30,409 nt of DNA, taken from the IMG/VR virus record IMGVR_UViG_3300032163_000074, positions 1 through 30,409 of that record, one strand, 5' to 3'. The DNA comes from a virus. Every line of letters starts with the position of its first letter. The stretch's first letter is position 1. The notes under the pieces were generated by a model, which was not told where the DNA came from, did not search any database, and saw nothing but the letters and a program-made list of their open reading frames with translations. The translations under genes were made by a program, and so were the position numbers. Below, in pieces: positions 1-22,046 of this stretch.

Positions 1-127
1 CCATGTAGGCTAGGCCTAGGGTTGGACCGCCTGACTGGTCTCGCTAGGGGTACGTTGGTGTAGGCGTGGGGCTAGCTCCTGGAGTAGAAGCGTGCAGGTC
101 GGGGTAGTGATCAGAGTGAGGCCTGCT
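1..127. repeat. Left copy of a perfect 127-bp inverted terminal repeat
   Basis: Bases 1-127 are the exact reverse complement of 30283-30409; identity breaks at base 128 (A here, C expected from the other end). The repeat holds a 10-bp palindrome CTAGGCCTAG at 10-19, three closely spaced TAGG units within 7-19, and one copy of the dispersed motif GGTACGT at 49-55. On the minus strand it encodes the last 36 codons and stop of the lipoprotein gene. It could be a true linear-genome terminal repeat, an inversion-site repeat, or the inner edge of a longer repeat cut by assembly. Confidence 0.97.
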
Positions 128-486
128 AGCCCAGCTCCGCTGGGGTGTGGGGCCAGCTTGGTCCTGATGGTGGTGCCGTCAGGGAGGCTTGGGCAAGTAG
201 CTTCTAGGAGGCAGCTAGACGACAAGGAATAGGGGCAGTCCGTACCGCCGATAGATAGGATGCCTGTTGGGAGGACGAATAGGGTGTCGTCGCCTGTGAC
301 CATGTCCTCAGGACAGGAGCCGGCTTTGTACTCGTGGTGGAGAATGTATTCGCCAAACACAGCCCGGCAGGGGGCCGGTTGCGCCAATGTCAAAGGCTTG
401 GGTGGTAGTGGTGGGTTGGTTTTAGCCGCCGGTGTGGTTGAGCAGGCCGTCAGTGCCAGGAGTGCTGCTAGGAGGGGTCTGTGCAT
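16..486 (-). CDS. Putative small lipoprotein ending inside the terminal repeat
   Basis: A 156-aa product with an N-terminal signal (basic MHR, hydrophobic LLAALLAL) followed by a lipobox-like LTAC. It is therefore predicted to be lipidated on Cys15 and exported. A proline-rich linker (about residues 23-34) leads to a body with several Cys (about 40, 58, 84, 92, 97), suggesting disulfides in the periplasm or outer membrane. No family was recognised. It is the last gene of the leftward cassette and its last 36 codons lie in the inverted repeat, so the same codons occur without a gene start at the right end. A Shine-Dalgarno is only weakly present (GGGAG directly before the ATG). The role could be host-surface modification or lysis; both are guesses. 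Confidence 0.75.
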   Translation of the reverse strand: MHRPLLAALLALTACSTTPAAKTNPPLPPKPLTLAQPAPCRAVFGEYILHHEYKAGSCPEDMVTGDDTLFVLPTGILSIGGTDCPYSLSSSCLLEATCPSLPDGTTIRTKLAPHPSGAGLAGLTLITTPTCTLLLQELAPRLHQRTPSETSQAVQP

Positions 487-1180: not shown

Positions 1181-1183
1181 GCG

Positions 1184-2897: not shown

Positions 2898-3538
2898 GCG
2901 CTGCTTTCTGATCCGTCAGACGTAGGATCGGTTGGTCCTAATTCATGGTTGGGGGCTTTATCATCAAACCAACCTACCAGCGCAGCTTCGATTTGTGGTT
3001 GAAGCGTGGACAAGGACTTACCGTAGTCGGCTATGTTGCTGGCTGCATCTTGATGTACCCCAGTGTAGTATCTGGAGTTGTACATCTCTTTGGCAAGGTC
3101 CTGGACACCGCAGTCCGCGATCGCCGAGGCCAGGCATCTGGGGCGCTGTTTGTATAGCATCTTTACCAGGTATTCTGCGCCGTCAACGTCGTACTTGAAG
3201 GAGGCGAAGTAGGTGTAGTACCAACCCTGTTTCGGTGCGCTGTCTCGGTGCAGCGCCAGGCCGGGTTGATCTAGGAGTTTCTTAGCCTTGGGTTCGTCTT
3301 TGGGTTCGCCTGGTTTCAGTCCGGCCTGCATATACTTGGCGATCTCGGACAGTTTCAGCGGCCGGGCCGTGCACGCCCCCCAGTTATGCTCCCCAGGCCA
3401 CGCATCTCCACACCTGGTCTCGTGCTCAGCCACACATAGCGCGTAGATGATAACCGACCTGGGTGGTTCGGTTGTGAACTGCCGCAGGTAACCGTCGAGG
3501 CATGCTTGGGCTTTAGTAAGCATTCGTGCATTGTCCAC
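2894..3538 (-). CDS. Putative endolysin of the lysozyme/glucosaminidase fold
   Basis: The 214-aa product lacks a signal peptide. It has a catalytic-Glu-type segment CVAEHETRCGDAW, then HNWGAC (like the NNWG of glucosaminidases), and a later YYTYFASFKYDVDGAEYLV motif resembling the substrate-groove region of lysozyme-superfamily murein hydrolases. The C-terminal 30 residues are acidic and probably disordered. I chose GTG at 3538 because GGAGG lies 8 nt upstream; the longer frame from 3595 would overlap the divergent terminase gene. It is first in the leftward cassette. The exact bond cleaved cannot be told from sequence alone. Confidence 0.65.
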   Translation of the reverse strand: MDNARMLTKAQACLDGYLRQFTTEPPRSVIIYALCVAEHETRCGDAWPGEHNWGACTARPLKLSEIAKYMQAGLKPGEPKDEPKAKKLLDQPGLALHRDSAPKQGWYYTYFASFKYDVDGAEYLVKMLYKQRPRCLASAIADCGVQDLAKEMYNSRYYTGVHQDAASNIADYGKSLSTLQPQIEAALVGWFDDKAPNHELGPTDPTSDGSESSA

Positions 3539-3546
3539 GGGTAACG

Positions 3547-3573
3547 CCTCCAGGGAGGAGTATACTCGGTGCA
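3547..3573. promoter_or_regulatory. Divergent promoter with palindromic -10 box
   Basis: The short region between the leftward endolysin gene and the rightward terminase gene contains AGTATACT (3559-3566), an 8-bp palindrome giving TATACT as a -10 box on both strands. It ends 7 nt before the terminase ATG. Next to it lies CCTCC-AG-GGAGG (3547-3558), which provides the leftward gene with a well-spaced Shine-Dalgarno. The rightward GGAGG sits 15 nt before the ATG, too far for normal use. No good -35 was found for either direction. Confidence 0.4.
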
Positions 3574-4896
3574 ATGAGGCAAAGCGAGCTATCACTGGTC
3601 GAGTTTATCCCCGCGGTAAACCCTCGTATGACTGCGCCTTACCATATGAAAGCGTTCGCAGAGTTGCTAGAGGGGGCGGATGGCGGAAGCGTGAGGGCAA
3701 TGTGTAGCATGCCGATCCGGCACTACAAGACCGAAACAGTCAAGCACGCAATCGCGTGGCTGCTTCTGCGTAATCCGGAACTGCGCATCATCTTCATGAC
3801 GCACTCCGCCCTGTACGCCCAGAATCGTGGGCGAGAGATACGAGACTTGTGTATGCAACTTGGTGTACGCGTGCGCGACGGACACAGCACTATCTCTGAG
3901 TGGCGCACTGACGAGGGTGGGGGAGTTCGGGCCATGAGCGCGCAGCAGTCTGCGCTTGGCGGCGACGTTGACATCCTGGTGGTTGATGACCCTTTCGAGA
4001 GCCAGGAAGCCGCAGATTCTGGGGACGTGCGTCAGATTGTTGACGACACGATAGCGTTTTACACGGCGCGCTTGAGCCGCGGCGGATCGGTGTTCCTGGT
4101 CATGTCTCGGTTCCACAACGACGATGCTATCGGTCGCCGCCAACGTAGGACGGCGGTGAAGTGGGAGTACATCCACCACCGGGCCATTATCGACGAGGGG
4201 TTAGAAACCGAGCAAGCTCTAGCTCCCGAGGTACGTACCCTTGAGGAGCTACACGCCATACGGGCTGAGCTCAAGGAATCCGATCCAACAGAACGTACCT
4301 GGTGGGGGCAGTTCCAGAACGAACCGCGCACGGATATGGGCGACCTGTTCAAGGCGCCTGCACGATACGAGCAGCTACCGGAGTGGCCGGGGTTCAGGGA
4401 CTTCATTGGTGTTGATATGGCATACAGCACCGGTAAGCGTTCGGACTGGTTCGCCCTGGTAGCCGTCCGAGCGTGGCGCGGTCAGTTCTTCGTACGTGAG
4501 GTTCAGAGGCTCAAGGCCGACCTAGGTGACTTGGAGCTGACCATACGCACGGCCTGGGAACGTTACGGTAGGTGTCCTGTGTACTCATACATGTCTGGTC
4601 CCGAAAAGGGGGCAGCTCATTACTTGAATGAGAAGGGTATACCTATCTACGTAATGCCAGCTAGATACGACAAACGTACGAGGGCGCAGAAGACCATCAA
4701 CCTGTGGAACGTTGGTAAGGTCATGGTGCCACAACACGCGCCTTGGGTGGAAGGGTTTCTGTCTAGAATACTTGCATTCCGAGGTGTGGAGGGGGATGAT
4801 GACGATGAGGTAGACGCCTTAGTTAGCGCACATGATGGGGGAGTTTTCTCGTCCGTTACTGCGCCTCAACGACTAGGGAAGCCTTTGTTTGGATGA
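3574..4896 (+). CDS. terL: Terminase large subunit
   Basis: This is the ATP-driven DNA packaging motor with headful or end-cutting nuclease. In the 440-aa product, PIRHYKTE (about 47-54) is the Walker-A-like P-loop, with Tyr where most relatives have Gly. ILVVDD (134-139) is Walker B. MSRFHNDD (about 177-184) matches the coupling motif usually written TRWHxDD. The C-terminal RNase-H-like nuclease starts at FIGVDMAYS (D281) and ends with the acidic DDDDEVDALVSA. The domain order suits the TIGR01630-type terminases. The ATG at 3574 is preferred over GTG at 3526 because homologous terminases begin close to it. It lacks a properly spaced Shine-Dalgarno and may be leaderless. No small subunit is recognisable. 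Confidence 0.93.
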   Translation: MRQSELSLVEFIPAVNPRMTAPYHMKAFAELLEGADGGSVRAMCSMPIRHYKTETVKHAIAWLLLRNPELRIIFMTHSALYAQNRGREIRDLCMQLGVRVRDGHSTISEWRTDEGGGVRAMSAQQSALGGDVDILVVDDPFESQEAADSGDVRQIVDDTIAFYTARLSRGGSVFLVMSRFHNDDAIGRRQRRTAVKWEYIHHRAIIDEGLETEQALAPEVRTLEELHAIRAELKESDPTERTWWGQFQNEPRTDMGDLFKAPARYEQLPEWPGFRDFIGVDMAYSTGKRSDWFALVAVRAWRGQFFVREVQRLKADLGDLELTIRTAWERYGRCPVYSYMSGPEKGAAHYLNEKGIPIYVMPARYDKRTRAQKTINLWNVGKVMVPQHAPWVEGFLSRILAFRGVEGDDDDEVDALVSAHDGGVFSSVTAPQRLGKPLFG

Positions 4897-4929
4897 TATC
4901 GAGGGGTGTGCCGCCCCGAGGAGTTGACC

Positions 4930-5307
4930 ATGGGTGACAATCTGTATGAGACGTATGAAAAGGCCAACGAAGAGGCTAAAAGAATGCTGGCGTCCCCTAC
5001 GCCGGCGGACCGTATGCCTGTGCTTGTTCCTTGCCTTGACGAGGAAATTGGGGTCACGTTTACGGCCGAAGTAGCCAAAAGCAAAACGTTCCCTGATGGT
5101 CGAGTTGTGTGTATACACGACTTTCGCTATCCCAAGAAGCCCGATGGTTTGCCCTTAGATGACACCAAGGAGGCGTGTAAGCTTTGGCGCTGGGAGGTTT
5201 ACCAAGCGGTTTTGAAACGGGTTGTGGGTAAACCGCTTAGCCGTTACATGCGAGCGGACTATCAGTTGAAAATGAAGGTTGACGAGGATAAACAAGCAAA
5301 AAAGTAA
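4930..5307 (+). CDS. Hypothetical protein between terminase and portal, 125 aa
   Basis: The ATG at 4930 follows GAGGAG with 6 nt spacing, which rules out the upstream in-frame start at 4906. The product is soluble. It has a helical N-terminus (YETYEKANEEAKRM), a central β-rich part (CLDEEIGVTFTAEVAK...GRVVCIHDF) and a lysine-rich helical C-terminus. No family recognised. Its place in the packaging block suggests a packaging or head-assembly accessory, or a divergent early gene. Confidence 0.7.
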   Translation: MGDNLYETYEKANEEAKRMLASPTPADRMPVLVPCLDEEIGVTFTAEVAKSKTFPDGRVVCIHDFRYPKKPDGLPLDDTKEACKLWRWEVYQAVLKRVVGKPLSRYMRADYQLKMKVDEDKQAKK

Positions 5308-5309
5308 CA

Positions 5310-5338
5310 TTGCTTCCTTCCCTTACCTACCGTATGAT
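5310..5338 (+). promoter_or_regulatory. Sigma70-type promoter for the portal/head operon
   Basis: TTGCTT (5310-5315), a 17-bp pyrimidine-rich spacer and TATGAT (5333-5338) form a near-consensus vegetative promoter. Only 8 nt separate the -10 box from the portal ATG at 5347, and no Shine-Dalgarno is present. Transcription should therefore begin at or within a few bases of the ATG and give a leaderless mRNA. Confidence 0.6.
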
Positions 5339-5346
5339 TGCGTTGT

Positions 5347-6732
5347 ATGGCTATCAACGGTGGTCCCCCGCCGGGCAGCGTTCTCGCCCACCCTAAAGCC
5401 CAGAGATTCGAGGTGGAGAATATGTTGGGCGGTCCCCAGCAGATCACCACCTCGGATCCGGCCTTTCAACCCCCCGCCGACCCTCTAGACGGGAGCCCCA
5501 CGGCCCGGGCCGGCCTCGTATACCGAGAGCTTCCGCTAGTTACCATCCAGAACTCTTGGACGGTCGAGGGCACTCGGGCGGCATTATGTGCCCACAACAC
5601 CGGAATTTTTTACGATTCTGGTCAGCTGTGTGACTCGATAATCGGCGACGACCGCGTACAGGCCACCATGAATTCCCGGGTTGGTGGGTTGTTCGGTTGT
5701 AGGGTTGTGCACCGCCCTGCAGACAGTTCGGATGAGGCTAAGGCGTGTTACGATGCTTGGGTCGGTTCCTGGTCCAGAATCGCCCCTGAACCCGCTCTGC
5801 GCGAGCTAACGTTCCGTTCCACGATGATGGGCTTCAGCATTGCCCAGTCGGTTTGGGATACTACTGGGGATCTCTGGGTACCGCAGATACGCCCCTGGCA
5901 TCCCTCATACTCGTATTACCACTGGAACCTTCGCAAGTACGTAGCCATCACACTTGATGGGCAACTTCCGGTTATCCCTGGAGATGGTAAATGGCTTCTC
6001 CATTCTCCCTACGGGGACTACCGCGGCTGGATGTATGGCGCCATTCGCGCCCTTACCGAGCCGTGGCTGATCCGCCACTTTGCCATTCGAGACTGGGCTA
6101 GGTTCAGTGAAATCCACGGTCTACCTACGCGCGTTGGTATGGTGCCCGCGGCTAGCGATCCTGCGGAGCGGGCAGCATTCGAGAACAGCATCGGTAACCT
6201 GGGGTCGTCCACGGCGATGATCCTCCCCACCGGGGTGGATGGTATCAACGGGTACGATTATAAGCTGATTGAAGCTACGGATGCCGCGTGGCAATCCTTC
6301 CCCGGCTTGCGGGACCACTGCGATAGTGCCATCACTTTGGCGATCCTTGGCCAAAACCTCACTACGGAAGTCAAAGAGGGATCATTTGCCGCGGCCCGGG
6401 TACACGGGGACGTGCGGCAGGGGATCCTGCAGGCAGACAATAGGGCCCTTAGCCAGACGATTCACGAGCAGTTGGCGCGCCCATTCGCCCTCTACAACTT
6501 TGGCAACGCTGACCTAGCCCCCTGGACTGAGTGGGAAGTAACTCCTTGGGAAGATTTCGACATGAAAGCCAAGATGTTCCAGGCTTTTGGAACCGCGCTT
6601 GAGGTTATGCGAAGGGGAGGGGTTCAGTTTCAGAGCGAAGAGGACATCTCCAAGATGGCTAAGTCCTTTGGTTTAGACCTACCCGAAGTAAAGCTGGTTG
6701 ACCCGATCTCGGGTGGCCTAGGAAGCAAGTGA
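5347..6732 (+). CDS. Portal protein, DUF935 / Mu gp29 family
   Basis: This protein forms the dodecameric ring at the head vertex through which DNA enters and leaves. The 461-aa product carries the DUF935-type signature WLIRHFAIRDWARFSEIHG followed by LPTRVG, a preceding WLLHSPYGDYRGWMYG segment, and DHCDSAITLAILGQNLT downstream. The length is close to Mu gp29 (about 510 aa). The ATG at 5347 has a promoter directly upstream and no Shine-Dalgarno; a TTG at 5338 is also in frame but lies inside the -10 box. The stop overlaps the next gene as GTGA. Confidence 0.9.
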   Translation: MAINGGPPPGSVLAHPKAQRFEVENMLGGPQQITTSDPAFQPPADPLDGSPTARAGLVYRELPLVTIQNSWTVEGTRAALCAHNTGIFYDSGQLCDSIIGDDRVQATMNSRVGGLFGCRVVHRPADSSDEAKACYDAWVGSWSRIAPEPALRELTFRSTMMGFSIAQSVWDTTGDLWVPQIRPWHPSYSYYHWNLRKYVAITLDGQLPVIPGDGKWLLHSPYGDYRGWMYGAIRALTEPWLIRHFAIRDWARFSEIHGLPTRVGMVPAASDPAERAAFENSIGNLGSSTAMILPTGVDGINGYDYKLIEATDAAWQSFPGLRDHCDSAITLAILGQNLTTEVKEGSFAAARVHGDVRQGILQADNRALSQTIHEQLARPFALYNFGNADLAPWTEWEVTPWEDFDMKAKMFQAFGTALEVMRRGGVQFQSEEDISKMAKSFGLDLPEVKLVDPISGGLGSK

Positions 6733-7334
6733 TCGTCAATTGCGGTGCGTATAATGATATCGACTTCTTGGGGGGACTGCCCTATCAGACGGCTAACACA
6801 ATTGACCTGACCGGCATTACGGGTGCGCTGCCTCAGGAGTATTACCAGACATGCCGCTACGGTACAGCGACATTTGGTTATGTGATACCTGGGCTTATTG
6901 CCGGCGCCACGTACGATTTTAGGCTTCATTTTGCCGATCCCTACTTTGCCGCCCCCGGCAACCGCGTGGGGAAGTTCTCGGTAAACGGCACAGTTGTTGC
7001 AGCAGCGTATGACATTGTCGCTGCCGCGGGGGCAATAAACAAAGCGTCTGTTCTGTCGTTTAGTGCCGAGGCTAACACGGATGGTGCGCTGTTCTTGGTA
7101 ATTGACCCTATAATCAGTAATCCCCTAGTGTGTGCAATAGAGCTGAATGCAGCTACACCTATTCCTGGAACTCCCCCGTCAACAACAGAACAAAAAACAG
7201 CCTGGGTCAACTTCGCCGCGCAATGCTACGCAGAATTCCTGCATCAGGGCCTGCCTACGGATCGGGCGGGGGCTCAGGCAGTAAAGGCAGCAGACCTACT
7301 TCTGAGCGGCTATAGGTCGAGGTGGACCACATGA
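6729..7334 (+). CDS. Malectin-like carbohydrate-binding domain protein in the head operon
   Basis: The 201-aa product starts at a GTG that overlaps the portal stop (GTGA). Residues 2 to about 140 look like a malectin-type β-sandwich: IVNCGAYNDIDFLGG near the start, YYQTCRYGTATFGYVIPGL, then TYDFRLHFADPYF and GKFSVNGTVV, the usual order of ligand-loop strands. The C-terminal about 50 residues form a separate helical tail (CYAEFLHQGL, AADLLLSGYRSRW). The slot after the portal is where Mu-like phages carry a MuF-type minor head protein, which is absent here. A capsid-associated glycan binder is a reasonable inference; an internal role cannot be excluded. Confidence 0.75.
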   Translation: MIVNCGAYNDIDFLGGLPYQTANTIDLTGITGALPQEYYQTCRYGTATFGYVIPGLIAGATYDFRLHFADPYFAAPGNRVGKFSVNGTVVAAAYDIVAAAGAINKASVLSFSAEANTDGALFLVIDPIISNPLVCAIELNAATPIPGTPPSTTEQKTAWVNFAAQCYAEFLHQGLPTDRAGAQAVKAADLLLSGYRSRWTT

Positions 7335-8959
7335 AATTCAGAGAGACACCCAAAGCTGGAGAGGCCCTGGCGATCTACCGGGACGCTATGTTCTGGGACC
7401 AGGCCCTAACCGTACCCCCGAACGAGATGTGTGGTGCGGCTGAGGTGGTGTACTTGCGGGGGTCTCTTGAGCACCACCCAACCGAGGGGTGTGACTCATA
7501 CGACGCGCTAAAGGCTCGTCTTTCCTTAGCATTCGCTAATCGCGAATCAAAGGTGGTCGTACTGCGCATAGACTCCCCCGGAGGTGTGGTAAGCGGGCTC
7601 AACGAGACGGTTTACGCAATGCGCAAAATGAGCAAAGACGCCGGCAAGCCGCTAATCGCCTATGTGGATGAACTTTCGGCCAGCGCGGCTTATGCCATCG
7701 CCTGCGGCTGTGAGGAGATTTTCGTTCCCCCGTCGGGAATCTGCGGCAGCGTCGGTGTGATCAGCACCATGTATGACCAGGTTAGTGCTGACAAGAAGCA
7801 GGGGGTGAATTTCGTCACCATCACTAGCGGGGCGCGTAAGGCAGACGGTCACCCCCACGTCGCTATCAGTCCTGAAGCTGTTTCTGCCGAACAAAAGCGG
7901 GTGAATCAGCTGGCTCAGCAGTTCTACAAGATCGTGTCTAGTGCTCGAGGAATCGGCATCAGCGCCATCAAAGGACTTCAGGCGGGGATCTTCTTGGGTC
8001 CAGAGGCGGTCAAACTGGGACTTGCGGACGGTGTGCTGGGATGGGATACTCTTCTCGAAACGATTTCACTTGTCTACGGCGTGCCCAATGGTGGACAATC
8101 AAACGCTGTCGCTAAACCTACTGAGGAAACGGATATGTCGCTAACCCTGACCGCACTCATAAGCAAGCTCGAGTCGAAGATCAAGGCGGAGAAGGACCCG
8201 AAACGGCTCCTCTCCTTCAAGGCCGAACTCGAGGCGGCCAAGACCATCAAGAAGTCCGTCGAAAAGTACGAGGAGTCCTCAGACGAGGGCGATGAGGAAG
8301 ACGACGAGGAGGAAGAAGCCAAAGGCAACGAGACCGACCGCAAGGAAGAAGACTCGAAAGACGACGGCGACGACTCTGGCGACTCCAAAGATGACGATTC
8401 GAAAGACGAGGATGACGAGGAGGACGATGAGGAAGAGGCTGCCGCGGCTAAAGCCGTTCTGGCTCTCGTTCGTAAGCAGACGGGGAAGAAGTCCTCGGCC
8501 TCTGTTCTTGGTGCTCTCCGAGCCGCTTTTGACAAGTCTGCCAAGTACGACGCCACGGCGAAAGACGTTGCGAAACTCAAGGCCGACGCAGCTAAGTCCC
8601 GAGTGACCTCATTGGTCTCGCAGGGCCTCAAGGCGGGAAAGCTCACCCCTAAGGCTGCGGAGTGGCTCAAGGCTCAACCCGAAGCGACGGTAAAGAGTTA
8701 CATCGAGGCCATGCCCAAGGACGCGGTTGTTACCACAGAAGAGACGGTTCGGGTTCCCGGTAAGGGGCTCAACACCTACGAAATGGGGGTCTCGTCAGGG
8801 AACGTACCTGGAGACTTTTCGGGCCTCTCGGCCGAAGAGGCGAAGGTTCTTGAGATGGGCTATGCCAGTGCAGTTTCGGCAGGCATGAAGATCACCAAGG
8901 AGCAATTTCTCAACAACTGGCGACAGGCGCAGAATGGCGCCGGGATGAAGAGGTACTAG
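7331..8959 (+). CDS. S49-family head maturation protease fused to scaffold
   Basis: This 542-aa protein resembles lambda gpC. It has an N-terminal serine protease of the SppA/ClpP fold, then an acidic scaffold-like tail. Visible protease elements are VVLRIDSPGGVVSG, the nucleophile region DELSASAAYAIA (Ser at about 118) and TSGARKADGHP (Lys at about 170) for the Ser-Lys dyad. From about residue 269 the sequence becomes helical, and around 305-380 it is dominated by Asp/Glu runs. The ATG at 7331 overlaps the malectin-gene stop as ATGA. An internal in-frame start probably yields a separate scaffold. The end of the protein (LSAEEAKVLEMGYASAVSAG) is helical and may bind capsid. Confidence 0.88.
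   Translation: MKFRETPKAGEALAIYRDAMFWDQALTVPPNEMCGAAEVVYLRGSLEHHPTEGCDSYDALKARLSLAFANRESKVVVLRIDSPGGVVSGLNETVYAMRKMSKDAGKPLIAYVDELSASAAYAIACGCEEIFVPPSGICGSVGVISTMYDQVSADKKQGVNFVTITSGARKADGHPHVAISPEAVSAEQKRVNQLAQQFYKIVSSARGIGISAIKGLQAGIFLGPEAVKLGLADGVLGWDTLLETISLVYGVPNGGQSNAVAKPTEETDMSLTLTALISKLESKIKAEKDPKRLLSFKAELEAAKTIKKSVEKYEESSDEGDEEDDEEEEAKGNETDRKEEDSKDDGDDSGDSKDDDSKDEDDEEDDEEEAAAAKAVLALVRKQTGKKSSASVLGALRAAFDKSAKYDATAKDVAKLKADAAKSRVTSLVSQGLKAGKLTPKAAEWLKAQPEATVKSYIEAMPKDAVVTTEETVRVPGKGLNTYEMGVSSGNVPGDFSGLSAEEAKVLEMGYASAVSAGMKITKEQFLNNWRQAQNGAGMKRY
8135..8959 (+). CDS. Nested in-frame capsid scaffold (Nu3-like), alternative start
   Basis: An ATG inside the protease gene at 8135, in the same frame, is preceded by GAGGA with 7 nt spacing. 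It would produce a 274-aa protein starting MSLTLTALISKLESK. It holds only the helical, acidic scaffold part, with no protease domain. Lambda and many relatives make a scaffold this way (gpNu3 within gpC). The arrangement is inferred from the Shine-Dalgarno, the domain boundary and that precedent. Confidence 0.6.
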   Translation: MSLTLTALISKLESKIKAEKDPKRLLSFKAELEAAKTIKKSVEKYEESSDEGDEEDDEEEEAKGNETDRKEEDSKDDGDDSGDSKDDDSKDEDDEEDDEEEAAAAKAVLALVRKQTGKKSSASVLGALRAAFDKSAKYDATAKDVAKLKADAAKSRVTSLVSQGLKAGKLTPKAAEWLKAQPEATVKSYIEAMPKDAVVTTEETVRVPGKGLNTYEMGVSSGNVPGDFSGLSAEEAKVLEMGYASAVSAGMKITKEQFLNNWRQAQNGAGMKRY

Positions 8960-8963
8960 GATC

Positions 8964-9422
8964 ATGGCACTCACCAAAGACGCTAAAATTACTCGGTTTG
9001 GGGTCCCGTCCCTACACGAACCGCTGAGCATCCCGCTCCACGCAAGCACCACGGTGTACGCTGGGTCGTTTGCTCTTACAGCCACTGCCGACGGACTCGT
9101 CAAGAACTCGGCTTCGCCTGCCAGCACCGATACGGTCTGGGGTGTTATCCAACGTCAGGTTACCTGCGGATCGTCTTCGGCTTCGGTTAGCGCCGAGATC
9201 GAGACGGGTTCGTTTTACTTCGCCGCGGGCGCCAATTCCGATGCTCTTGTTCAGGCCGATATCGGAAAGGTTGTGTACGTCATCGATGAGGTCACTGTCG
9301 GTAAGACCACCGGTAGCGGCACACGCCCCGTTGCTGGGACGCTTCTGAATATCGACACTACACTACCTGGTGGGTATGCCGTAAAGGTAGGCAGCGCACC
9401 TCCTGGCACTGGGAGCCCGTAA
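8964..9422 (+). CDS. Putative capsid decoration/stabilisation protein
   Basis: The 152-aa product is β-rich, with features reminiscent of DUF2190-type capsid cement proteins: an opening MALTKDAKITRFG, then YAGSFALTATADGLVKN, and later GKVVYVIDEVTVG. It stands directly before the major capsid gene, the usual slot for a decoration protein. AGGA lies very close to the ATG (2 nt); GAGG further up may help. It has no signal peptide. Its role on the capsid surface is inferred from position and composition. Confidence 0.65.
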   Translation: MALTKDAKITRFGVPSLHEPLSIPLHASTTVYAGSFALTATADGLVKNSASPASTDTVWGVIQRQVTCGSSSASVSAEIETGSFYFAAGANSDALVQADIGKVVYVIDEVTVGKTTGSGTRPVAGTLLNIDTTLPGGYAVKVGSAPPGTGSP

Positions 9423-9425
9423 CAA

Positions 9426-10409
9426 ATGATCACCGACTCGTCGCTTCAGTTTTTCTTTACCAACCTCAACACCATGTTGGGCGAGGCGTACACCACGACG
9501 CCAATCGTCCACGACAAGTTCGCCTCTGTTATCCCGGTTACCAGTGAAGACTGGAAAGCGGGCTGGACTGGGCGAATGGATAAGATGCGCGTTTGGGCTG
9601 GTCCCCGCGTCACGGAAGAGCCGGCACCGCAGACGTACACGGTGTCGATGATTCCTTTCGAGCAGACCCGGAAGATTGACCGGTTCCGCCTTGATGACGA
9701 CACGATGGGCCTGTACTACCGCATGCTTCCCGACATGGCTGTTCAGGCGAAACGGCTCCCGGACTTCCAAATCCGAGACCTTCTCCAGAACCTCAACGCC
9801 TATGTGGGTATTCGCCAGAACGGCCTCGACGGGCTCACGCACTTCAACACGGCGCACCCGGTTGACTTGTTTGACGCAGGTAAGGGAACGTACTGTAACG
9901 ACTTCACCGGCGGCGGCGTGTCTATCGGCGGCGTGACTGTCGGAGGTGCGATGAGCCCAACGGCAGTTAGCACACTCTGGACGTACATGAGTGGGTACAA
10001 AGCGGAAGACGGGGAACCGCTCGGCATTGAACCTAACATGATCCTCGCACCATCCACGATGAAACTTGAGGTTGACCTCATCCTCAAGTCTACGTTCTTC
10101 GCGCCCCCCAGCTGGGGTACGGTTACGGGGCAAGTCGGTGCGGCAGATAACCCCCTACAACGCTTCGGTATGGAGCCGCTGTACTGGCCCCTCCTGAACA
10201 ATGCCCAAGGTACGAACTGGTACATGCTGGACACTAATCATGCGATGAAGCCGTTCACGTGGCTTCAACGAACGGCGCCTGTTTTCCAATACCTCATTGA
10301 TGAGAACAGCGCTCCGGTGTTCAACGAGCACTCGTACGTCTACGGCGCCTGGGCGCGAGGCTCGGCCGCGTGGTCGTTTGCCTGGCTCTCGGCTCGTTCG
10401 GGCCCGTAG
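9426..10409 (+). CDS. Major capsid protein, Mu gpT-like (HK97 fold expected)
   Basis: The 327-aa product resembles Mu gpT-type head subunits: an N-terminal helix (LQFFFTNLNTMLGEAY), the EDWKAGWTG segment, a DRFRLDDDTMGLYYRML region matching the 'DDxxGxY' part of the family, and NLNAYVGIRQNGLDGLTHFN near the middle. The length is close to gpT (about 305 aa). No clear Shine-Dalgarno precedes the ATG, which lies 3 nt after the previous stop, so it probably relies on coupling. There is no N-terminal prosequence resembling an HK97 delta domain, consistent with a separate scaffold. Confidence 0.85.
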   Translation: MITDSSLQFFFTNLNTMLGEAYTTTPIVHDKFASVIPVTSEDWKAGWTGRMDKMRVWAGPRVTEEPAPQTYTVSMIPFEQTRKIDRFRLDDDTMGLYYRMLPDMAVQAKRLPDFQIRDLLQNLNAYVGIRQNGLDGLTHFNTAHPVDLFDAGKGTYCNDFTGGGVSIGGVTVGGAMSPTAVSTLWTYMSGYKAEDGEPLGIEPNMILAPSTMKLEVDLILKSTFFAPPSWGTVTGQVGAADNPLQRFGMEPLYWPLLNNAQGTNWYMLDTNHAMKPFTWLQRTAPVFQYLIDENSAPVFNEHSYVYGAWARGSAAWSFAWLSARSGP

Positions 10410-10849
10410 TGAGTCAGTACTGCCAACCCTCGGACTTGGTGCTCTATGGCCTGCCTGCGCAGGCTATAGCGCCAATCCCTGGGGCTACGCAGACAGCGCA
10501 GTGTATTGCCGCCAGCGAGTTAGCGGACAGCTATCTTCGGGGACGCTACCCGCTCCCACTAACCGCATGGGGCGTCGATCTTACGATGAAGGTCTCGTAC
10601 GTAGCCTCGTACCTACTCTTAGCTCAACGAGGTTACAACCCCGCTGCGGGGGCAGACCCCCTCATCAAGCTGCGCTATGATGACGCCATTCGGTGGTTTG
10701 AGGGTATTCAGAAGCAGGCGGTGCATCCGGACGTAACTAGCACCCCGTCGCCACAAAACGACCCCACCTACGGATTACCGCAGGTGCACTCAAGCCAACC
10801 TCGCGGATGGGGTACCAACAACTCCTCCGGGACCCCAACGATCGGGTAA
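10409..10849 (+). CDS. Head-tail connector, Mu gp36 / DUF1320-like
   Basis: The start is GTG at 10409, overlapping the capsid stop as TAGTG. The 146-aa product shows the DUF1320 pattern: QPSDLVLYGLP, then AASELADSYLRGRYPLPL, a helix MKVSYVASYLLLAQRGY, and LRYDDAIRWFEGIQKQ. The family sits under the portal and joins head to tail. The last about 35 residues are a flexible Pro/Ser-rich tail. The order capsid, connector, tail completion matches Mu. Confidence 0.82.
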   Translation: MSQYCQPSDLVLYGLPAQAIAPIPGATQTAQCIAASELADSYLRGRYPLPLTAWGVDLTMKVSYVASYLLLAQRGYNPAAGADPLIKLRYDDAIRWFEGIQKQAVHPDVTSTPSPQNDPTYGLPQVHSSQPRGWGTNNSSGTPTIG

Positions 10850-10854
10850 TAAAA

Positions 10855-11166
10855 ATGTCGATGTGGGCGGGTTTACTAGGAAAAGTTCAGTATGCTTCTG
10901 GGACGTCGGGCACATTGACGCTCAATGCCGGAGCGCGTGTTCTTCAGATCAAAGCGGCTAACGTGTCCGCCGGTTCCGTAGTTATTTTTGGCGGCGCTAC
11001 GATTGTCCTACCAGCAATTACCGGCGGGGGTTGGGGTTTCAACCTACAAGAAAACCACACCAACCTGGTGGCACCCACTGGAGCTACTACCATCGTGTTT
11101 GCTACCACCACTTCCTACTACGTAGAATACGTGGATGCTGCTGGCAGGACGGCCCCAACGGCATGA
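10855..11166 (+). CDS. Small β-rich structural protein, 103 aa
   Basis: The ATG at 10855 (MSMWAGLLGKVQYASG) lies 5 nt after the connector stop; an earlier in-frame start inside the connector is unlikely. The product is rich in Gly, Thr and Val, with alternating β-strand patterns (VLQIKAANVSAGSVVIFGG, TTIVFATTTSYYVEYVDAAG). It could be a minor virion protein such as a spike or decoration. No family recognised. Its stop overlaps the next start as ATGA. Confidence 0.6.
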   Translation: MSMWAGLLGKVQYASGTSGTLTLNAGARVLQIKAANVSAGSVVIFGGATIVLPAITGGGWGFNLQENHTNLVAPTGATTIVFATTTSYYVEYVDAAGRTAPTA

Positions 11167-11570
11167 GTTTCTCCGCCGACATAAAGCGGATGCAGGAACA
11201 GCTCAAGGCCGCAGGTCAGGTACTACCCAAGGCGGGAATTACTGCAGCTAAGCTCATCACTGGTCTGCTCCAGGATGAGTTCACCGCCAGCAGAGACCCC
11301 TATGGCCAAACTTGGGCTGAGCTCAAGGTTAGGGCAGGACGGCCCTTGGTTGCCACCGGCGCGCTCATGTCCGAGACCAGAGCCGAGTTCCGATCACCGT
11401 CATCGATCGTAGCCTCAGTCGAGGACTATGGCGTATACCACCAGTTTGGTACCTCAAACGTACCCCAGCGTAAGATTATCCCCGACGACACGACGCCTTC
11501 GTCCTGGGAGAAAACTATTCAGGACAGTCTCGATACAGAACTCCGGCAGGTCTTCGGGGAGGGTACGTGA
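11163..11570 (+). CDS. Tail completion / virion morphogenesis protein, gpS-like
   Basis: The 135-aa product starts in an ATGA overlap. It has the family pattern FTASRDPYGQTWAELK, then GRPLVATGALMSETRAEF and YGVYHQFGTSNVPQRKIIPDD, as in phage virion morphogenesis proteins (Mu gpG, P2 gpS; PF05069). These proteins act at the head-tail junction when the tail is finished. The gene ends in GAGGGTACGTGA, where GGGGAGGG also supplies the Shine-Dalgarno for the next gene. Confidence 0.82.
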   Translation: MSFSADIKRMQEQLKAAGQVLPKAGITAAKLITGLLQDEFTASRDPYGQTWAELKVRAGRPLVATGALMSETRAEFRSPSSIVASVEDYGVYHQFGTSNVPQRKIIPDDTTPSSWEKTIQDSLDTELRQVFGEGT

Positions 11571-12176
11571 TTGCCTGGGATAGTTTCACTGGTGTCGCAG
11601 ATATCGACGGACGTAACGTCGAAGCTGGCGGGGCTTGGGCTACCCCCTTTGGTGGATGGGGCGATCTTGCTGGGTCGTCAACACATCAGGGTAGAGTCGA
11701 GTCCTCCCAGGATAGTGTTCATCCCTATGGGCAGTTCATTCACGGCCAAGAGCCTGAGTGCGCGCTCACAAGTGTCGGGGAATCCGTCAGCAAACGAGGT
11801 ACTGCAATGGCAGCAGCGTTCGGTTATGACCGACGTTACTCGCTTCGAGGTTCAGGTCTGGGGTGTTTTGGACGCTTCGAACCCCGATCCGAACAACGAC
11901 ATGGATGCCACTCAGCTACTCTATCAGCTGCTGCTGTCCTCGATACACTTGCTTACAGTAGGCAGGTATCGGATAATCTCTGGGGAATGGGTAGACCAAC
12001 AGCCCAACGCAGCACAGATGATCAAAATAGGGCATTTGTATACCCTACAGCTAGAATTCCAGACCCCGGTACTTGCCGAGGCATTACCCCTAGTACCGAG
12101 CGGAACCAAACCAAACCCAACAACGAAGATTCAGCCCGCCGACGGTGGCACCCCAGAGACCGGATGCTCCGGGTAG
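11571..12176 (+). CDS. Putative tail terminator protein, TTG start
   Basis: The frame opens with TTG directly after the upstream TGA, with GGGGAGGG 7 nt ahead. The 201-aa product begins IVSLVSQISTDVTSKLAGLG and contains a central β-part with TRFEVQVWGVLDASNP, followed by LLYQLLLSSIHLLTVGRYRIISGEW. This pattern suits a gp37/tail-terminator-like protein that caps the tail tube and sheath. Position between tail completion and sheath agrees. A second long frame (11567-12184) across the same DNA has no family features and is taken as a shadow. Confidence 0.68.
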   Translation: MPGIVSLVSQISTDVTSKLAGLGLPPLVDGAILLGRQHIRVESSPPRIVFIPMGSSFTAKSLSARSQVSGNPSANEVLQWQQRSVMTDVTRFEVQVWGVLDASNPDPNNDMDATQLLYQLLLSSIHLLTVGRYRIISGEWVDQQPNAAQMIKIGHLYTLQLEFQTPVLAEALPLVPSGTKPNPTTKIQPADGGTPETGCSG

Positions 12177-12187
12177 GAGAATGACAG

Positions 12188-13693
12188 ATGACTACCGGTA
12201 ACGTTGAAATTACAATTCTGGACTTTCAGGGCGGCTCTGTCGTAACTCCGGCGTCTTCCGTCCAGGTTGTAATCGGTACGTGTTGCGCTGGGTCTGCCTC
12301 AGCCAATTCGATCATTTCCACACGCAGCCTACAGACATTGACGACCCAGATGGGCTACGGTCAGATTCCGGAGTACGCTGCGCTGGCTGTTCAGGCGGGT
12401 GGTACGGTGCTCGCTATCAAGGCCACCCAGAACGCGGCGGGGACGGCCAGTGGCGTAGTCAGCACCTCCGGCAACACGGGGTCCTCCACGGTTACTGTAA
12501 CCTTGGACGGGACGTATGGTGCTTACGATGACTACTACGTCAAGCTCAAGGTCGTGGCGGGTGGTACGCGGGGGACGACGGGTATCACGGTTCAGGTCTC
12601 GCTAGACGCCGGGCGCACCTATGGGCCTGTCCTAGCTCTGGGGACCGCCGTGACGCTCGCTATTGCTAATACAGGGGTTACTATCGCGTTTGGCGCCGGT
12701 ATCCTGGTGGCTGGCGATACCTACACCTTCGCTACAGCGGCACCGACGGCTGCGGTTGCTGGTATCTCGTCGGCACTGACTGCTCTGCAAACGTCCCCTT
12801 ACGCCATTACTGGGTGGGGCTCTATTCACGTCCTTGGTACGTGGTCGGCGGCGGATGCTGCAACTATTCAAGGGTATCTCAACACGCTGGCCACGGGCTA
12901 CATCTTCACACGTACCCTGTTGTCTGCACGTGACGCTTCACCACAGTCAAAGTGGGGCGGGTCGGGGGAGTCTGACTCGTCTTGGGTTACTAGTCTTACA
13001 ACCGACTACGCCACCGCGTCGGCTAAGCGCGTCGACGTGTCCGGAGGCTTCTACAACATGCCGACGGCCATTACCAACTCGACGGCCGGTACCCCCCGCT
13101 ACAGGCGCAGCGGACAGTGGGCGGCAGCAGCCAGGCAGGTGGCCATCCCGCCGCAGCGACATGCTGGGCGAGTTCGAGACGGCGCGCTGGCCCAGATTGT
13201 CATCGACGCCCCCAACGACCCGTTGGACGGCTTCGTGTACCACGACGAGCGCCTAAACCCGGGACTCGACGCTGCGCGGTTCACAAGCTACACGACCAGG
13301 GTCGGTCTCCCGGGCTACTACGTGGTGAACCCTAACCTGATGTCACCCCCTGGCTCGGACTTCTCCTTGCTGCCTCTGGGTCTGGTCATGGACGTAGCCT
13401 GCGACATTGTACACCAGGTAGGTCAGCTTGAGATCAACTCGGACGTGCGGCTGAACCAGAACGGAACCCTATATGTGAACGAGGCCGTGTCGCTAGAGTC
13501 CACCCTGCTCTCTGCCCTGAACAATGCCATGACCAACGTCGGGATGATCTCCAGCGCTAGCGTAGTCGTGGACCAGACCAACAATGTTCAAGTCAGCAAG
13601 ACCGTCAACATCGCGGTCACCATCACGGCCCGCGGGTACGTTCTGCAGGAGAACGTCACCATCGGCTTCAATAACCCGAACGCGGCTCAGTAG
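12188..13693 (+). CDS. Contractile tail sheath protein
   Basis: The 501-aa product follows TAGGAG with 8 nt spacing. The N-terminus (VEITILDFQGGSVVTPASSVQVVIGTC) and the C-terminal domain (LLPLGLVMDVACDIVHQ, LYVNEAVSLESTLLSALNNAM, ending in NIAVTITARGYVLQENVTIGF) are typical of myovirus sheath subunits. The middle (about 80-190) carries a Gly/Thr-rich β-domain probably exposed on the sheath surface. The following gene is the tube protein, the usual sheath-tube pair. Confidence 0.85.
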   Translation: MTTGNVEITILDFQGGSVVTPASSVQVVIGTCCAGSASANSIISTRSLQTLTTQMGYGQIPEYAALAVQAGGTVLAIKATQNAAGTASGVVSTSGNTGSSTVTVTLDGTYGAYDDYYVKLKVVAGGTRGTTGITVQVSLDAGRTYGPVLALGTAVTLAIANTGVTIAFGAGILVAGDTYTFATAAPTAAVAGISSALTALQTSPYAITGWGSIHVLGTWSAADAATIQGYLNTLATGYIFTRTLLSARDASPQSKWGGSGESDSSWVTSLTTDYATASAKRVDVSGGFYNMPTAITNSTAGTPRYRRSGQWAAAARQVAIPPQRHAGRVRDGALAQIVIDAPNDPLDGFVYHDERLNPGLDAARFTSYTTRVGLPGYYVVNPNLMSPPGSDFSLLPLGLVMDVACDIVHQVGQLEINSDVRLNQNGTLYVNEAVSLESTLLSALNNAMTNVGMISSASVVVDQTNNVQVSKTVNIAVTITARGYVLQENVTIGFNNPNAAQ

Positions 13694-13704
13694 GAGATAC
13701 ACAG

Positions 13705-14181
13705 ATGAGCACCATTGCCTATCCACTGATCAACGGCGTTCGACACTCTTTCTCGAGTATCGAGCTCAAGATCGCCGGTCAGATCTACGTCGGTTTCAAA
13801 TCTATCAACTACTCGCGCAAGCGTAGTCGCACGATGGTCCGTGGTAACTCACCTGATCCGTTGGGCAAGACCCGCGGTACGAACGAGTATACGGCGGACT
13901 GTGAGATCTTCTTGGCTGAGTGGAATCTGCTCCAGTCTCAGCTTCAGAATCTGGGCGCCGGCTACGGTGACCAGTTCTTCAACATCGTCGTTACCTACAC
14001 CGAGAACGGCTTCGACACTGTCTCTGACACGATCGTGGCGTGTACCCTAGACACAACGGATGTGAGTCAGTCCGAAGGGGCGGATCCGCTGGTACGCAAG
14101 TTCGAACTCAACCCGCTGAAGATTTTATTCAACGGGCTTGATGATCTTGCAAACCCACTTACCGGAGCTCAAACGAGCTAG
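13705..14181 (+). CDS. Tail tube protein
   Basis: The 158-aa product follows GGAG with good spacing. It starts MSTIAYPLINGVRHSFSSIE and contains RSRTMVRGNSPDPLGKTRG and GYGDQFFNIVVTYTEN, a pattern seen in tube proteins of Mu/P2-type myoviruses. It would form the inner tube inside the sheath. Its last 57 nt overlap, on the opposite strand, the 3' end of the HNH endonuclease gene. Confidence 0.75.
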   Translation: MSTIAYPLINGVRHSFSSIELKIAGQIYVGFKSINYSRKRSRTMVRGNSPDPLGKTRGTNEYTADCEIFLAEWNLLQSQLQNLGAGYGDQFFNIVVTYTENGFDTVSDTIVACTLDTTDVSQSEGADPLVRKFELNPLKILFNGLDDLANPLTGAQTS

Positions 14182-14517
14182 TATCAGGTACCGGATAGCC
14201 TGTAACAGGCGTACTACACTGTCGTTGAAATGACCCAGACCGACGTTGCATTCATTACATATTACACCCCGCACATACCCACTAGTGTGACAGTGGTCAA
14301 TTGTAGCCCTGAGGGCATCCAACCCTCGATTACATAGCTTACACTTCCCACCCTGTTTCTGAATGATGGTATAAAGGTTTTTAGAGGACATACCGTAGCG
14401 TCGCTTCAGGTTAGTTTCACGGTCGTACGCTACTCGACATTTTCTGCATTGTCCGCTTTTGACGTAGTGTTCTTCCAGAAGCCCACAGTACTTACAGATC
14501 TTTACAATCTTAGGCAT
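14125..14517 (-). CDS. HNH homing-type endonuclease, endonuclease VII family
   Basis: The 130-aa product has two N-terminal CxxC pairs (CKYC, CRKC), then QGGKCKLC, the active-site TIDHCHTSGYVRG and VICNECNVGLGHFND, the standard order of the endonuclease VII-like HNH family. It sits alone, reversed, between tube and chaperone genes, like many selfish HNH genes in phages. The family normally ends after AIRYL; the extra LARLSSGKW-type tail is read antisense from the tube gene. GC is low: 26 of 60 bases in 14341-14400. A promoter lies directly upstream. The 14182-14611 gap in plus-strand genes is explained by this insertion. Confidence 0.88.
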   Translation of the reverse strand: MPKIVKICKYCGLLEEHYVKSGQCRKCRVAYDRETNLKRRYGMSSKNLYTIIQKQGGKCKLCNRGLDALRATIDHCHTSGYVRGVICNECNVGLGHFNDSVVRLLQAIRYLILARLSSGKWVCKIIKPVE

Positions 14518-14524
14518 GGCTGAT

Positions 14525-14554
14525 ACTATACATGGGCCGGTGTCGACTGGGCAA
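14525..14554 (-). promoter_or_regulatory. Promoter of the HNH gene, probably leaderless
   Basis: On the minus strand TTGCCC (14554-14549), an 18-bp spacer and TATAGT (14530-14525) form a sigma70-like promoter. The -10 box ends 7 nt before the HNH ATG and no Shine-Dalgarno is present. This is the same geometry as at the portal and terminase genes. Confidence 0.5.
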
Positions 14555-14611
14555 GTCTAGGACAGCATCAGGTGTTGATCTGGTGTTCTCCTCTCCTACT
14601 GGAGGGTTGAG

Positions 14612-14929
14612 ATGCTCACAGAAAAACAGATGGCCGAACTTGAGGTCAAGCATGGTCGCATTGCACGTTTGAGGGATCCTCAGGGTAAATGGGAGGTAGT
14701 TCTGCGGAAGCCGACACGCCCCGAGTACAAGGCGTTCAGGGCACGTTCCCACAACCCTGCGCAGATCGCCGACGCGCAGGAGCAGCTGGTGCGGCAGATT
14801 GTGGTGCACCCTACGGCAGAAGCGTTCGGTAGCTTACTGGACGACTACCCAGGTATCGCCGAGAGCCCGGCCGCCAGCAAGGCGCTGCAAGCGTTGACTG
14901 GTATGGCCGCAGAGGAGGACTCAAAATAA
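14612..14929 (+). CDS. Tail assembly chaperone, first frame
   Basis: The 105-aa product lies between the tube and tape-measure genes, the standard slot of the frameshifted chaperone pair (P2 E/E', Mu and lambda G/GT). It follows GGAGG with 6 nt spacing; that GGAGG can pair with CTCC four bases upstream, so start access may be tuned. The protein is helical and charged (TEKQMAELEVKHGRIARLRD; FRARSHNPAQIADAQEQLVR). It ends at AAAATAA, where ribosomes could slip -1 into the next frame. The call rests on position and architecture. Confidence 0.68.
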   Translation: MLTEKQMAELEVKHGRIARLRDPQGKWEVVLRKPTRPEYKAFRARSHNPAQIADAQEQLVRQIVVHPTAEAFGSLLDDYPGIAESPAASKALQALTGMAAEEDSK

Positions 14930-15096
14930 TCAGGGACCTGCGCACAGAGCAGCGCAGGGACCTTGGGGCGTTCGCTGACGGGCTCACGGACTGGATTAAC
15001 CACGTACCCAGTTTCGAGGCTGAAGCCGCCGCCATCAACGTGGCAGACATTCTTCTGGTGCTCCGGGCGGCCAACTTAGCCCAAGGCGACAAGTGA
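14926..15096 (+). CDS. Tail chaperone extension frame, made by -1 shift or AUA start
   Basis: A 56-codon frame in the -1 register opens at the end of the chaperone gene and runs to a TGA that overlaps the tape-measure GTG. The product reads IIRDLRTEQRRDLGAFADGL and so on, a helical protein. It has no ATG, GTG or TTG near its start. Either ribosomes slip on AAAA (14923-14926) before UAA and give a G-GT-like fusion, or they initiate at AUA 14926, which is 7 nt after GAGGAGG. Comparable phages use slippage. Confidence 0.6.
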   Translation: MIRDLRTEQRRDLGAFADGLTDWINHVPSFEAEAAAINVADILLVLRAANLAQGDK

Positions 15097-16727
15097 TAGC
15101 CGAGTTCGTAGTCGAGATGGTGGACAAGATTTCGGAGCCCGCAAAACGGGCGATCGAGAGCTTGTCTGAGCTCGTTCTCGAATCGAATGCGCTGGGGGTC
15201 TCGGGTGAGGAGACTGGGGGCGTTTTTGAGAAGCTCTCTGGATTCTTTTCTGAGAACGCGTTTGCTATAGGGGCGGTGGTGTCTGCCGCGTTGGCGGCTG
15301 CCGGAGTTTTGGCCAAGCTATCCTATGAAGGGTCTAAGTTAGCCCTAGAGGCGACTGACGCCAGCGAGGATATGAAGATCCTCTTTGGAGCTCTAAGCGA
15401 TGGGGCCTTCTCGGGGGAGGACGCGGTCAAGATGCTTGACGACCTCAGCCACCAAACCGGAAAGACCCGCGCTGCTCTAGCCCCGCTTGCTCAAGCGTTT
15501 ATGGCTATGGGCATTCGAGATCTCCCAAAGCTAAATCAAGCTCTACTGGCGTCCGCCTCTGCATCGGCTTTAGCTGGAGAAGGGGGAGCCGACGCGTTCA
15601 AAACTCTGACAGCTAAGATTCAAGAAGCCGTTGAGGCTGGTAAAGGTTTGAAGCTCGCAGATAAGCAGCTGGCAAACCTGTACAAGACCGGCATATCCGT
15701 GGCGGACGTTGCTAAGAAAATGGGGGTCTCTCAAGAGGAGCTGACCAAACAGCTGTCCAAGGGGACGGCAAACGCTAGGGCTTTCGGCGACGCGTTACAG
15801 GCGGCAATCATAGAAAAGGGCGCGGGGCCTTTGGAGCATTTTGCCAACAACCTGGGCCAGATCCTGGACATAGCAAAACAACGGGCAACAGACCTGTTTA
15901 TTTTCGGTCCGGCCCAAACCGGCATCGATAACTTCCTGTCCGGGCTCAAGGACATGCTGTCAATTTTCGATGTAGCTAAGCCAAGTGGTCAGGCTTTGAA
16001 GGCCGCCATCACAGGAGCTTTGAATTCAATCTTCCAAGCCGCGGCCAAGGTTTTTCCCTACATCAAGAAATTTGCTCTGGACCTGGTCATCGTTGGCCTG
16101 AAAATTTACATCGCTTTCAAACCGGTGGTGGCGAAGTTCAAGGAGTTGTTCTCTGGTAAGACTGCGGGTGACGTGTTTGGCACGATGCTAGTTCGTTGCG
16201 CCAATATGCTAATTATCGTGGGTGAGGCTGCTGCTCGTGGCGCCATGATGATCCTCAAGATTGTAGAGGTTTGGCAGACGGTATCCGCTGCCCTGAGTAA
16301 CGCCGAGTCAATCGGTAGTAACTTTATCGCCGGTCTAGTGGCGGGTATTACTGGGGGTCTGGGTGATGTAGTGTCGGCGGCATCCGGAATAGGGCAGGCG
16401 GCCGAAGGGGCCCTAAAGTCCGCCCTTGGTATTGCTTCTCCCTCCAAGGTAATGCTTGAGGCGGGGGCGCACACGGCTGGTGGGTTCGCAAAGGGCATTG
16501 CTGCGGGGACAGGTGCGGTGGCTGATGCTGGTTCTGGGATGGGGGCAGCGGCGTCAGCAGGACCAAGCGCCGCCGCACCAGCCTCTGGGGCCAGTAACAG
16601 CAGCAAGAGTATCACCATCGACGTGGGGGGTATCCACATTGACGGATCGGGTAAGTCTGCCTCGGAGATCACGGAAGAGATGGTCAGCACTATCTTCGAG
16701 CGCATGGCGCTTCAGGTGGGGCTATGA
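15093..16727 (+). CDS. Tail tape measure protein
   Basis: This protein sets tail length and passes into the host during ejection. The 544-aa product starts at GTG in a GTGA overlap. It is long, mostly helical and Ala/Gly-rich, with hydrophobic stretches at about 56-74 (AFAIGAVVSAALAAAGVLA) and in the middle third, and a Gly/Ala/Ser-rich end with repeats of the type GLGDVVSAASGIGQAAEGAL. The segment LASASASALAGEGGADAFKTL is usual for tape measures. At about 0.15 nm per residue the tail would be near 80 nm, short for a myovirus. Position after the chaperone pair supports the call. Confidence 0.85.
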   Translation: MIAEFVVEMVDKISEPAKRAIESLSELVLESNALGVSGEETGGVFEKLSGFFSENAFAIGAVVSAALAAAGVLAKLSYEGSKLALEATDASEDMKILFGALSDGAFSGEDAVKMLDDLSHQTGKTRAALAPLAQAFMAMGIRDLPKLNQALLASASASALAGEGGADAFKTLTAKIQEAVEAGKGLKLADKQLANLYKTGISVADVAKKMGVSQEELTKQLSKGTANARAFGDALQAAIIEKGAGPLEHFANNLGQILDIAKQRATDLFIFGPAQTGIDNFLSGLKDMLSIFDVAKPSGQALKAAITGALNSIFQAAAKVFPYIKKFALDLVIVGLKIYIAFKPVVAKFKELFSGKTAGDVFGTMLVRCANMLIIVGEAAARGAMMILKIVEVWQTVSAALSNAESIGSNFIAGLVAGITGGLGDVVSAASGIGQAAEGALKSALGIASPSKVMLEAGAHTAGGFAKGIAAGTGAVADAGSGMGAAASAGPSAAAPASGASNSSKSITIDVGGIHIDGSGKSASEITEEMVSTIFERMALQVGL

Positions 16728-17290
16728 GTCTTGGTGATTTCAACCCAATAGTATTCCCCCAGCTCTGGGACAACATTGTGATAGCCGAGGTTCAAGGCCC
16801 GGGTATCTGCGAACTTGGTACCTTCAAAAGAGTACACGAGTTTCAGATCAAGAAGGGTAAGGGTACGGTTGGTGCCACAGTAACGTTCACTCAGAAACCC
16901 CCTGCGGAGGGTTCCGCCAAGCTCTTGCTGTGGACTGAGGAGCACTTCGCGCAGCTCGACGACTTCCTACCGCTACTCAAGTACGACCCCACCAAACAGG
17001 GCGTTGAGGCTGTAAGTATTTTCCACCCCACCCTGGCCGCGATCGATATCAGCAGCGTGGTATGCACCAACATTGAAAGCATCACGCACGAAGGTGGCCA
17101 GCTCTACTCAATCAAACTGGACTTCCTGGAGTACTTCCCGGCTAGCCCCAAGAATGCGGTTAGCTCCCCAACTACCACCAACGACAACACTGGGCGCATC
17201 CGAGTGTTCCCTGGAGAGCAACCAAGAACGGTCACGGACGTGCAGGAGAAGACCATACAGGACCTCTTGAACAAAGCAGAGGCCCCGTGA
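16724..17290 (+). CDS. Baseplate/tail-hub associated protein, 188 aa
   Basis: The start overlaps the tape-measure stop (ATGA). The product has the pattern LWDNIVIAEVQGPGICEL, FKRVHEFQIKKGKGTVGATV and LWTEEHFAQLDDFLPLLKYD, seen in a conserved phage family encoded just after the tape measure in contractile-tail phages. The likely place is the inner baseplate, near the tube tip. I recognise the pattern, not a named family. Its stop overlaps the next GTG (GTGA). Confidence 0.65.
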   Translation: MSLGDFNPIVFPQLWDNIVIAEVQGPGICELGTFKRVHEFQIKKGKGTVGATVTFTQKPPAEGSAKLLLWTEEHFAQLDDFLPLLKYDPTKQGVEAVSIFHPTLAAIDISSVVCTNIESITHEGGQLYSIKLDFLEYFPASPKNAVSSPTTTNDNTGRIRVFPGEQPRTVTDVQEKTIQDLLNKAEAP

Positions 17291-17940
17291 CCTGGGCCAG
17301 CTACGGCGGAGTTCCGGTTGTCCGCGGGAGCATCTCGATCCCATACTATGGGACGTTTGCTGCGGACATCACGTTGCCATTGACTACCCACGTACCCCAG
17401 ACAGGATTGCTTGTGGCTGGAGACCTGACCCTACAGTGCGCAGTTTACAGAACGGATTCGTTTGCGGGGCAGCGAGAGGTACGTTTGGTGGGGGGTTTTG
17501 GTGGGTGGCGTAAACCGGTGTCGTCGCAGGCATACAAGAATAGCGCTGGTATCAACGTGTCCTTGGTTCTTGGGGATGTGGCCAACACCGTAGGAGAGAA
17601 GGTCAGCGTCAGCAATGATTCCAGCCTTGGTCAGCACTTTGTTCGGGAGGCGGCCAAGGCGTCTCGGGTGCTGGATCAGCTCAGTGGATCTCTGTGGTGG
17701 TCCAAACCAGACGGGACAACGGTTGTAGGTGATCGTGTTACTGGGTCAGTTACGTCTCAGTTCAACATAGAAGATGAGAAGGGGGACAAGGGCAGTATCG
17801 TTGTGCATACCGAACACCTGGCTGACTGGGTGCCCGGCCTTACCGTAACGTCCCCCACACTTAGTACTAAGACTCTATCCTTCATTCGCCACACGTTCGA
17901 AATGGACGGTAAGGCCAAGATGGAGGTGCTGTATGTCTGA
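17287..17940 (+). CDS. Putative baseplate hub protein (gpD/gp27-like position)
   Basis: The 217-aa product starts at GTG in a GTGA overlap. It is β-rich with an acidic middle (FNIEDEKGDKGSIVVHTEHLADWVPGL) and a C-terminal β-hairpin (SFIRHTFEMDGKAKMEVLYV), as expected for a hub subunit joining tube to spike. It is shorter than P2 gpD (about 390 aa), so it could be one half of a split hub together with the preceding protein. The neighbour downstream is the spike, which fits. Confidence 0.58.
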   Translation: MTWASYGGVPVVRGSISIPYYGTFAADITLPLTTHVPQTGLLVAGDLTLQCAVYRTDSFAGQREVRLVGGFGGWRKPVSSQAYKNSAGINVSLVLGDVANTVGEKVSVSNDSSLGQHFVREAAKASRVLDQLSGSLWWSKPDGTTVVGDRVTGSVTSQFNIEDEKGDKGSIVVHTEHLADWVPGLTVTSPTLSTKTLSFIRHTFEMDGKAKMEVLYV

Positions 17941-22038: not shown

Positions 22039-22046
22039 GACACACA

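Follow-up and report, generated by a model that had tools for sequence, protein, structure and literature searches.

Phages of the phi29 group, which are copied by protein priming, possess inverted terminal repeats, and inverted ends are likewise present in the 30,409-nucleotide virus contig analysed here as a whole (hereafter the window). The window differs from these phages in its contractile-tailed gene set with a terminase and in that no family B polymerase was recognised in it. With the Mu-like transposable phages it shares a major head protein of the Mu gpT type, but no transposase was recognised among its genes. To our knowledge, the ends of Mu are not long perfect inverted repeats.

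Matching contig ends are also left by assemblers: contigs of metaSPAdes and MEGAHIT that end at a break point overlap there by exactly maxK (COBRA; PMC10914622). These overlaps, widespread in the collection, resemble the ends of the window in their exact length k and in the sharp divergence that follows, the difference being that the window overlaps its own reverse, which is rarer than the direct case. Contigs with inverted ends have been surveyed before: IMG/VR holds 624 of them vs 15,211 with direct repeats, and according to CheckV 33% of inverted-end contigs look complete vs 90% of direct-end contigs (PMC8116208). Moreover, 87 species-level clusters contain both direct-end and inverted-end members (PMC9610469). 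These surveys agree that inverted ends are often not intrinsic to the genome. In one study of multiple displacement amplification (MDA), inverted junctions made up >85% of the chimeras (PMC1855051). The inverted-end contigs of IMG/VR and of gut phage catalogues (PMC8116208, PMC9610469) bear the same end signature as the window, with nothing specific to it.

In the window, bases 1–127 (left arm, plus strand) are the exact reverse complement of bases 30283–30409 (right arm, minus strand, i.e. the same 127-mer reversed), and the identity breaks sharply at base 128. An exact match of 127 bases cannot be due to chance, and direct comparison of the ends bore out the perfect inverted match and the point of divergence described in a sequence-only reading of this DNA. 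The arm occurs only twice in the single IMG/VR virus record of 30409 bases; it forms the only substantial inverted repeat of the window, the next-longest one listed having 32 nt at 72%. Inward of both arms, the window has neither further end-to-end similarity nor subterminal inverted repeats. At the nucleotide level the arm had no significant match in any of the relatives described below, and an exact search of IMG/VR (from which the window's own record may be omitted) with the first 28 arm bases gave no match. The folding of the arm DNA is not unusual (z +1.3), Rfam and tRNA scans yielded no matches, and the similarity of the arm to the 48 bp preceding the right-end open reading frame (ORF) is weak (score 33, the best of 500 shuffles reaching 34).

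Each arm is adjoined by an ORF on the minus strand. At the left end, a 156-aa ORF (16..486) with a lipoprotein-like start heads outward into the arm; its codon score is near zero and it is uncertain whether it is a true gene. The 151-aa ORF at the right end (29779..30234) starts 48 bp inward of the arm and possibly encodes a lysozyme or transglycosylase, as judged by eye only; it had no family match in the profile scans. Homologs of both ORFs were sought in order to tell which copy of the arm is native, and none were found.

The window carries the genes of a Mu/P2-like contractile-tailed phage, in agreement with the sequence-only reading: large terminase, portal, head protease, Mu gpT-type major head protein, sheath, tape measure and baseplate proteins. 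Its major head protein matches PF10124 (E 2e-38), a Mu-type family. The packaging, head, contractile tail and baseplate module (3526..26039, plus strand) served to find relatives, and the gene of an exonuclease of the DUF3799/exonuclease VIII type (26310..27158, minus strand) served to draw control contigs. Scans of the predicted genes with PHROGs and Pfam recognised no DDE transposase and, for this contig only, no family B DNA polymerase (PolB), terminal protein or other protein-priming gene; nor was an integrase, telomere resolvase or invertase/recombinase recognised among the scanned genes of the window. Three further genes were noted. Between the portal and head protease genes lies one for a malectin-like domain protein (6729–7334; PF11721, E 1e-13), an odd site for a carbohydrate-binding fold. 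The exonuclease gene is adjoined by that of a 90-aa PC4-type protein (26069–26341; PF02229), which likely binds single-stranded DNA, and the early-gene region includes a small lipoprotein-like metallopeptidase of the matrixin/astacin type (27377–27931; PF00413).

In one JGI paper, bulk metagenomes were assembled with SPAdes --meta at k of 33, 55, 77, 99 and 127, and a MEGAHIT assembly used k from 23 to 123 (PMC6243002). The arm length of the window, 127, equals the largest k of the former setting, from which we infer k = 127 for the window's own record. As in de Bruijn end overlaps, the two arms have the length of the largest k, are perfectly identical and diverge straight after k. Among 26 relatives found via the major head protein, two have inverted ends (G023, of 127; G021, of 123, which is the largest k of the MEGAHIT setting), the sizes of this pair being 30.8 and 32.6 kb. 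Exact direct end repeats are present in three others (G001, exactly 127; G012, 114; G020, 61). Relatives were also sought in bacterial genomes with the single head protein, and none were found.

The controls comprised 39 contigs chosen by the exonuclease gene, of which all but one lack even a weak match to the head protein of the window. Direct end repeats were found in 15 of the 39 (exactly 127 in 11 of these 15), and one control (G031) has inverted ends of exactly 127. With a single inverted-end contig among 39 unrelated carriers, the exonuclease gene was rejected as a predictor of inverted ends. Microvirus genomes are circular; the PhiX-type microvirus controls were mostly isolate records without end repeats, together with three metagenomic contigs having direct repeats of 121. 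In all four inverted-end contigs (the window, G021, G023 and G031) the arm length is a largest k used by the JGI, and contig ends of length k are routine in the IMG/VR collection.

A small de Bruijn unitig simulation was run with k = 127 (its head-to-head dimer case was uninformative owing to the way in which the script closes circles). From a plain circle came a contig with a direct repeat of 127. Long contigs whose ends were inverted over exactly 127 were obtained from linear sources with terminal inverted repeats of 127, 128, 150, 400 and 1500 bp, from circles with internal inverted repeats (127 bp or longer) and from an inverted pair within longer DNA. The same ends arose from a repeat-free genome with one inverted chimeric junction extending a dead end. 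A chimera competing with the true path produced no inverted ends. A 30-bp invertible site led to ends of 30 bp, not 127, and a 300-bp inverted repeat with both orientations present led to inverted ends of length k. Since such varied sources all yield 127, the contig proves only that one 127-mer bounds both of its ends in opposite orientation.

The 127-bp inverted ends are very probably the signature of de Bruijn assembly with k = 127. As the word size of the assembler is 127, they most likely mark a stop of the assembly and not a new type of phage chromosome end. On this view the contig is a path of 30.2 kb that starts from a single 127-mer vertex and comes back to it reversed, which gives both of its ends exactly k bases of that vertex. 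This vertex is probably where a larger phage genome (roughly 40 kb or more) was broken, whether by a single inverted junction, chimeric or rearranged, that extended a dead end or by an inverted repeat measuring 127 bp or more. How long any underlying repeat really is cannot be read from the contig. The sequence-only reading had pointed out that 127 is a common largest k, which the JGI settings, the relatives, the controls and the simulation all support. Of its two competing interpretations, the same evidence favours a contig bounded by a k-mer (graph node) that is its own partner in reverse. Its title, a perfect 127-bp inverted terminal repeat, is not supported as a feature of the genome: in the simulation the assembler imposes the length and the terminal position on any inverted repeat of at least 127 bp, or on one inverted junction at a dead end. 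Its expectation of an inverted repeat in the source DNA, unless chimeric reads made one, agrees with the simulated cases. More generally, where inverted end repeats have the length of an assembler k, neither the completeness of a genome nor a new chromosome type should be regarded as proven by them.

The window itself is probably incomplete. The relatives that circularise through exact direct end repeats measure 41.3, 44.1 and 58.6 kb, and four relatives (G020, G011, G012 and G019) jointly carry a VapE-type protein, ResIII and DnaB helicases, an AAA_25 ATPase, a family A polymerase, a sliding clamp and integrases. None of these replication genes and integrases was recognised in the scans of the window, which has small ORFs of unknown function; replication genes of this type were also not recognised in G001. 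Because the replication genes of its relatives went unrecognised in it, the window probably lacks a segment of the genome.

As to what created the break point, we lean slightly towards a junction over a true repeat. A single inverted junction, whether in a chimeric molecule (formed for example by MDA or by ligation during library preparation) or in a rearranged one, would have extended a dead end to the contig's own other end, the arm being single-copy in the source; we give this a little less than an even chance. It reproduces inverted ends of exactly 127 in the simulation, and it is consistent with the prevalence of inverted junctions among MDA chimeras and with the species clusters containing both end types cited above. 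It is also resembled by G023, in which one copy of the arm is the native start of the terminase gene and the other lies reversed, 22 nt beyond an HNH-like gene (an identity assigned by eye), an arrangement that looks like a rearranged or chimeric junction. However, a junction of this kind requires that the true continuation at that end be absent or weaker than the chimera, as the simulated chimera competing with the true path shows, and its origin by MDA presupposes an amplified sample. Furthermore, in three of the inverted-end contigs (the window, G021 and G031) the arms appear non-coding on both sides, a location that chimeras formed at random would not be expected to prefer in genomes so dense with genes. 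The non-coding arms fit better with a genuine inverted repeat (127 bp or longer) that flanks a 30-kb segment inside a larger circular or permuted genome, the remainder of which was assembled separately. We regard such a repeat, be it an inverted duplication, a large hairpin between genes or an element present twice, as only slightly less likely than the junction. The simulation yields exactly such a contig, and the segment that the window likely misses would be the one assembled separately. Against it, one arm of G023 is a fragment of the terminase gene, and apart from the four terminal cases no inverted repeat of >70 bp was found inside 44 contigs (1.43 Mb), a count in which repeats of at least k are under-represented as they break contigs.

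That inverted ends recur in G021 and G023, which are alike in size (30.8 and 32.6 kb), would also suit a true linear chromosome ending in inverted repeats of 127 bp or more and copied for example by protein priming; the simulation is compatible with it. This explanation is nevertheless unlikely: protein-priming genes, a family B polymerase included, were not recognised, nor were the replication genes of the relatives recognised in the window, and other relatives bear direct end repeats. In addition, the window, G021 and G023 have arms of unrelated sequence at non-equivalent positions: 3.5 kb upstream of the terminase gene in the window, 8.6 kb upstream of it in G021 and, in G023, within the terminase N-terminus. 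Least probable is a DNA segment that switches orientation like the Mu tail-fibre region; an inverted repeat of 300 bp could account for the ends in the simulation, but a 30-bp site could not, no invertase was recognised and the ends do not adjoin tail-fibre genes. The broader proposition that Mu-headed contractile-tailed phages of ~31–33 kb possess true inverted repeats of at least 127 bp, either as linear ends or as a large hairpin in a circle, is quite improbable as well. Some probability is kept on a real feature mainly because inverted ends are enriched among the relatives: two contigs, vs three with exact direct repeats, are more than the IMG/VR ratio of 624 to 15,211 predicts, a hand calculation, post hoc and based on small numbers, giving ~0.01–0.02. 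If true, long inverted repeats would constitute an end type new to myoviruses, and it would have to be asked how contractile-tailed phages with such ends copy and package their DNA.

Several minor observations were made in the compared contigs. The longest exact internal inverted repeat in the 44 contigs is a perfect one of 68 bp in G001 (L015, L016; 3251–3318 and 26900–26967). In G023 (L086) the large terminase is encoded by two overlapping ORFs in different frames (31136–32580 in contig coordinates), which may reflect a frameshift, an intron remnant or an assembly error. Genes of the PAPS-reductase family are present in both G001 and G023. Tandem or direct repeats were seen at or near the ends of seven contigs (G012, G019, G027, G030, G038, G039 and G051), where assembly seems to halt. 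Finally, G031 (L238, L239) carries a 37-bp semi-palindromic element with the core CTGTCAATAATTATTATTGGCACC, inverted near both ends (near 459 and 37051, 95%); partial matches to this element occur nearby, and it is perhaps a repeated operator.
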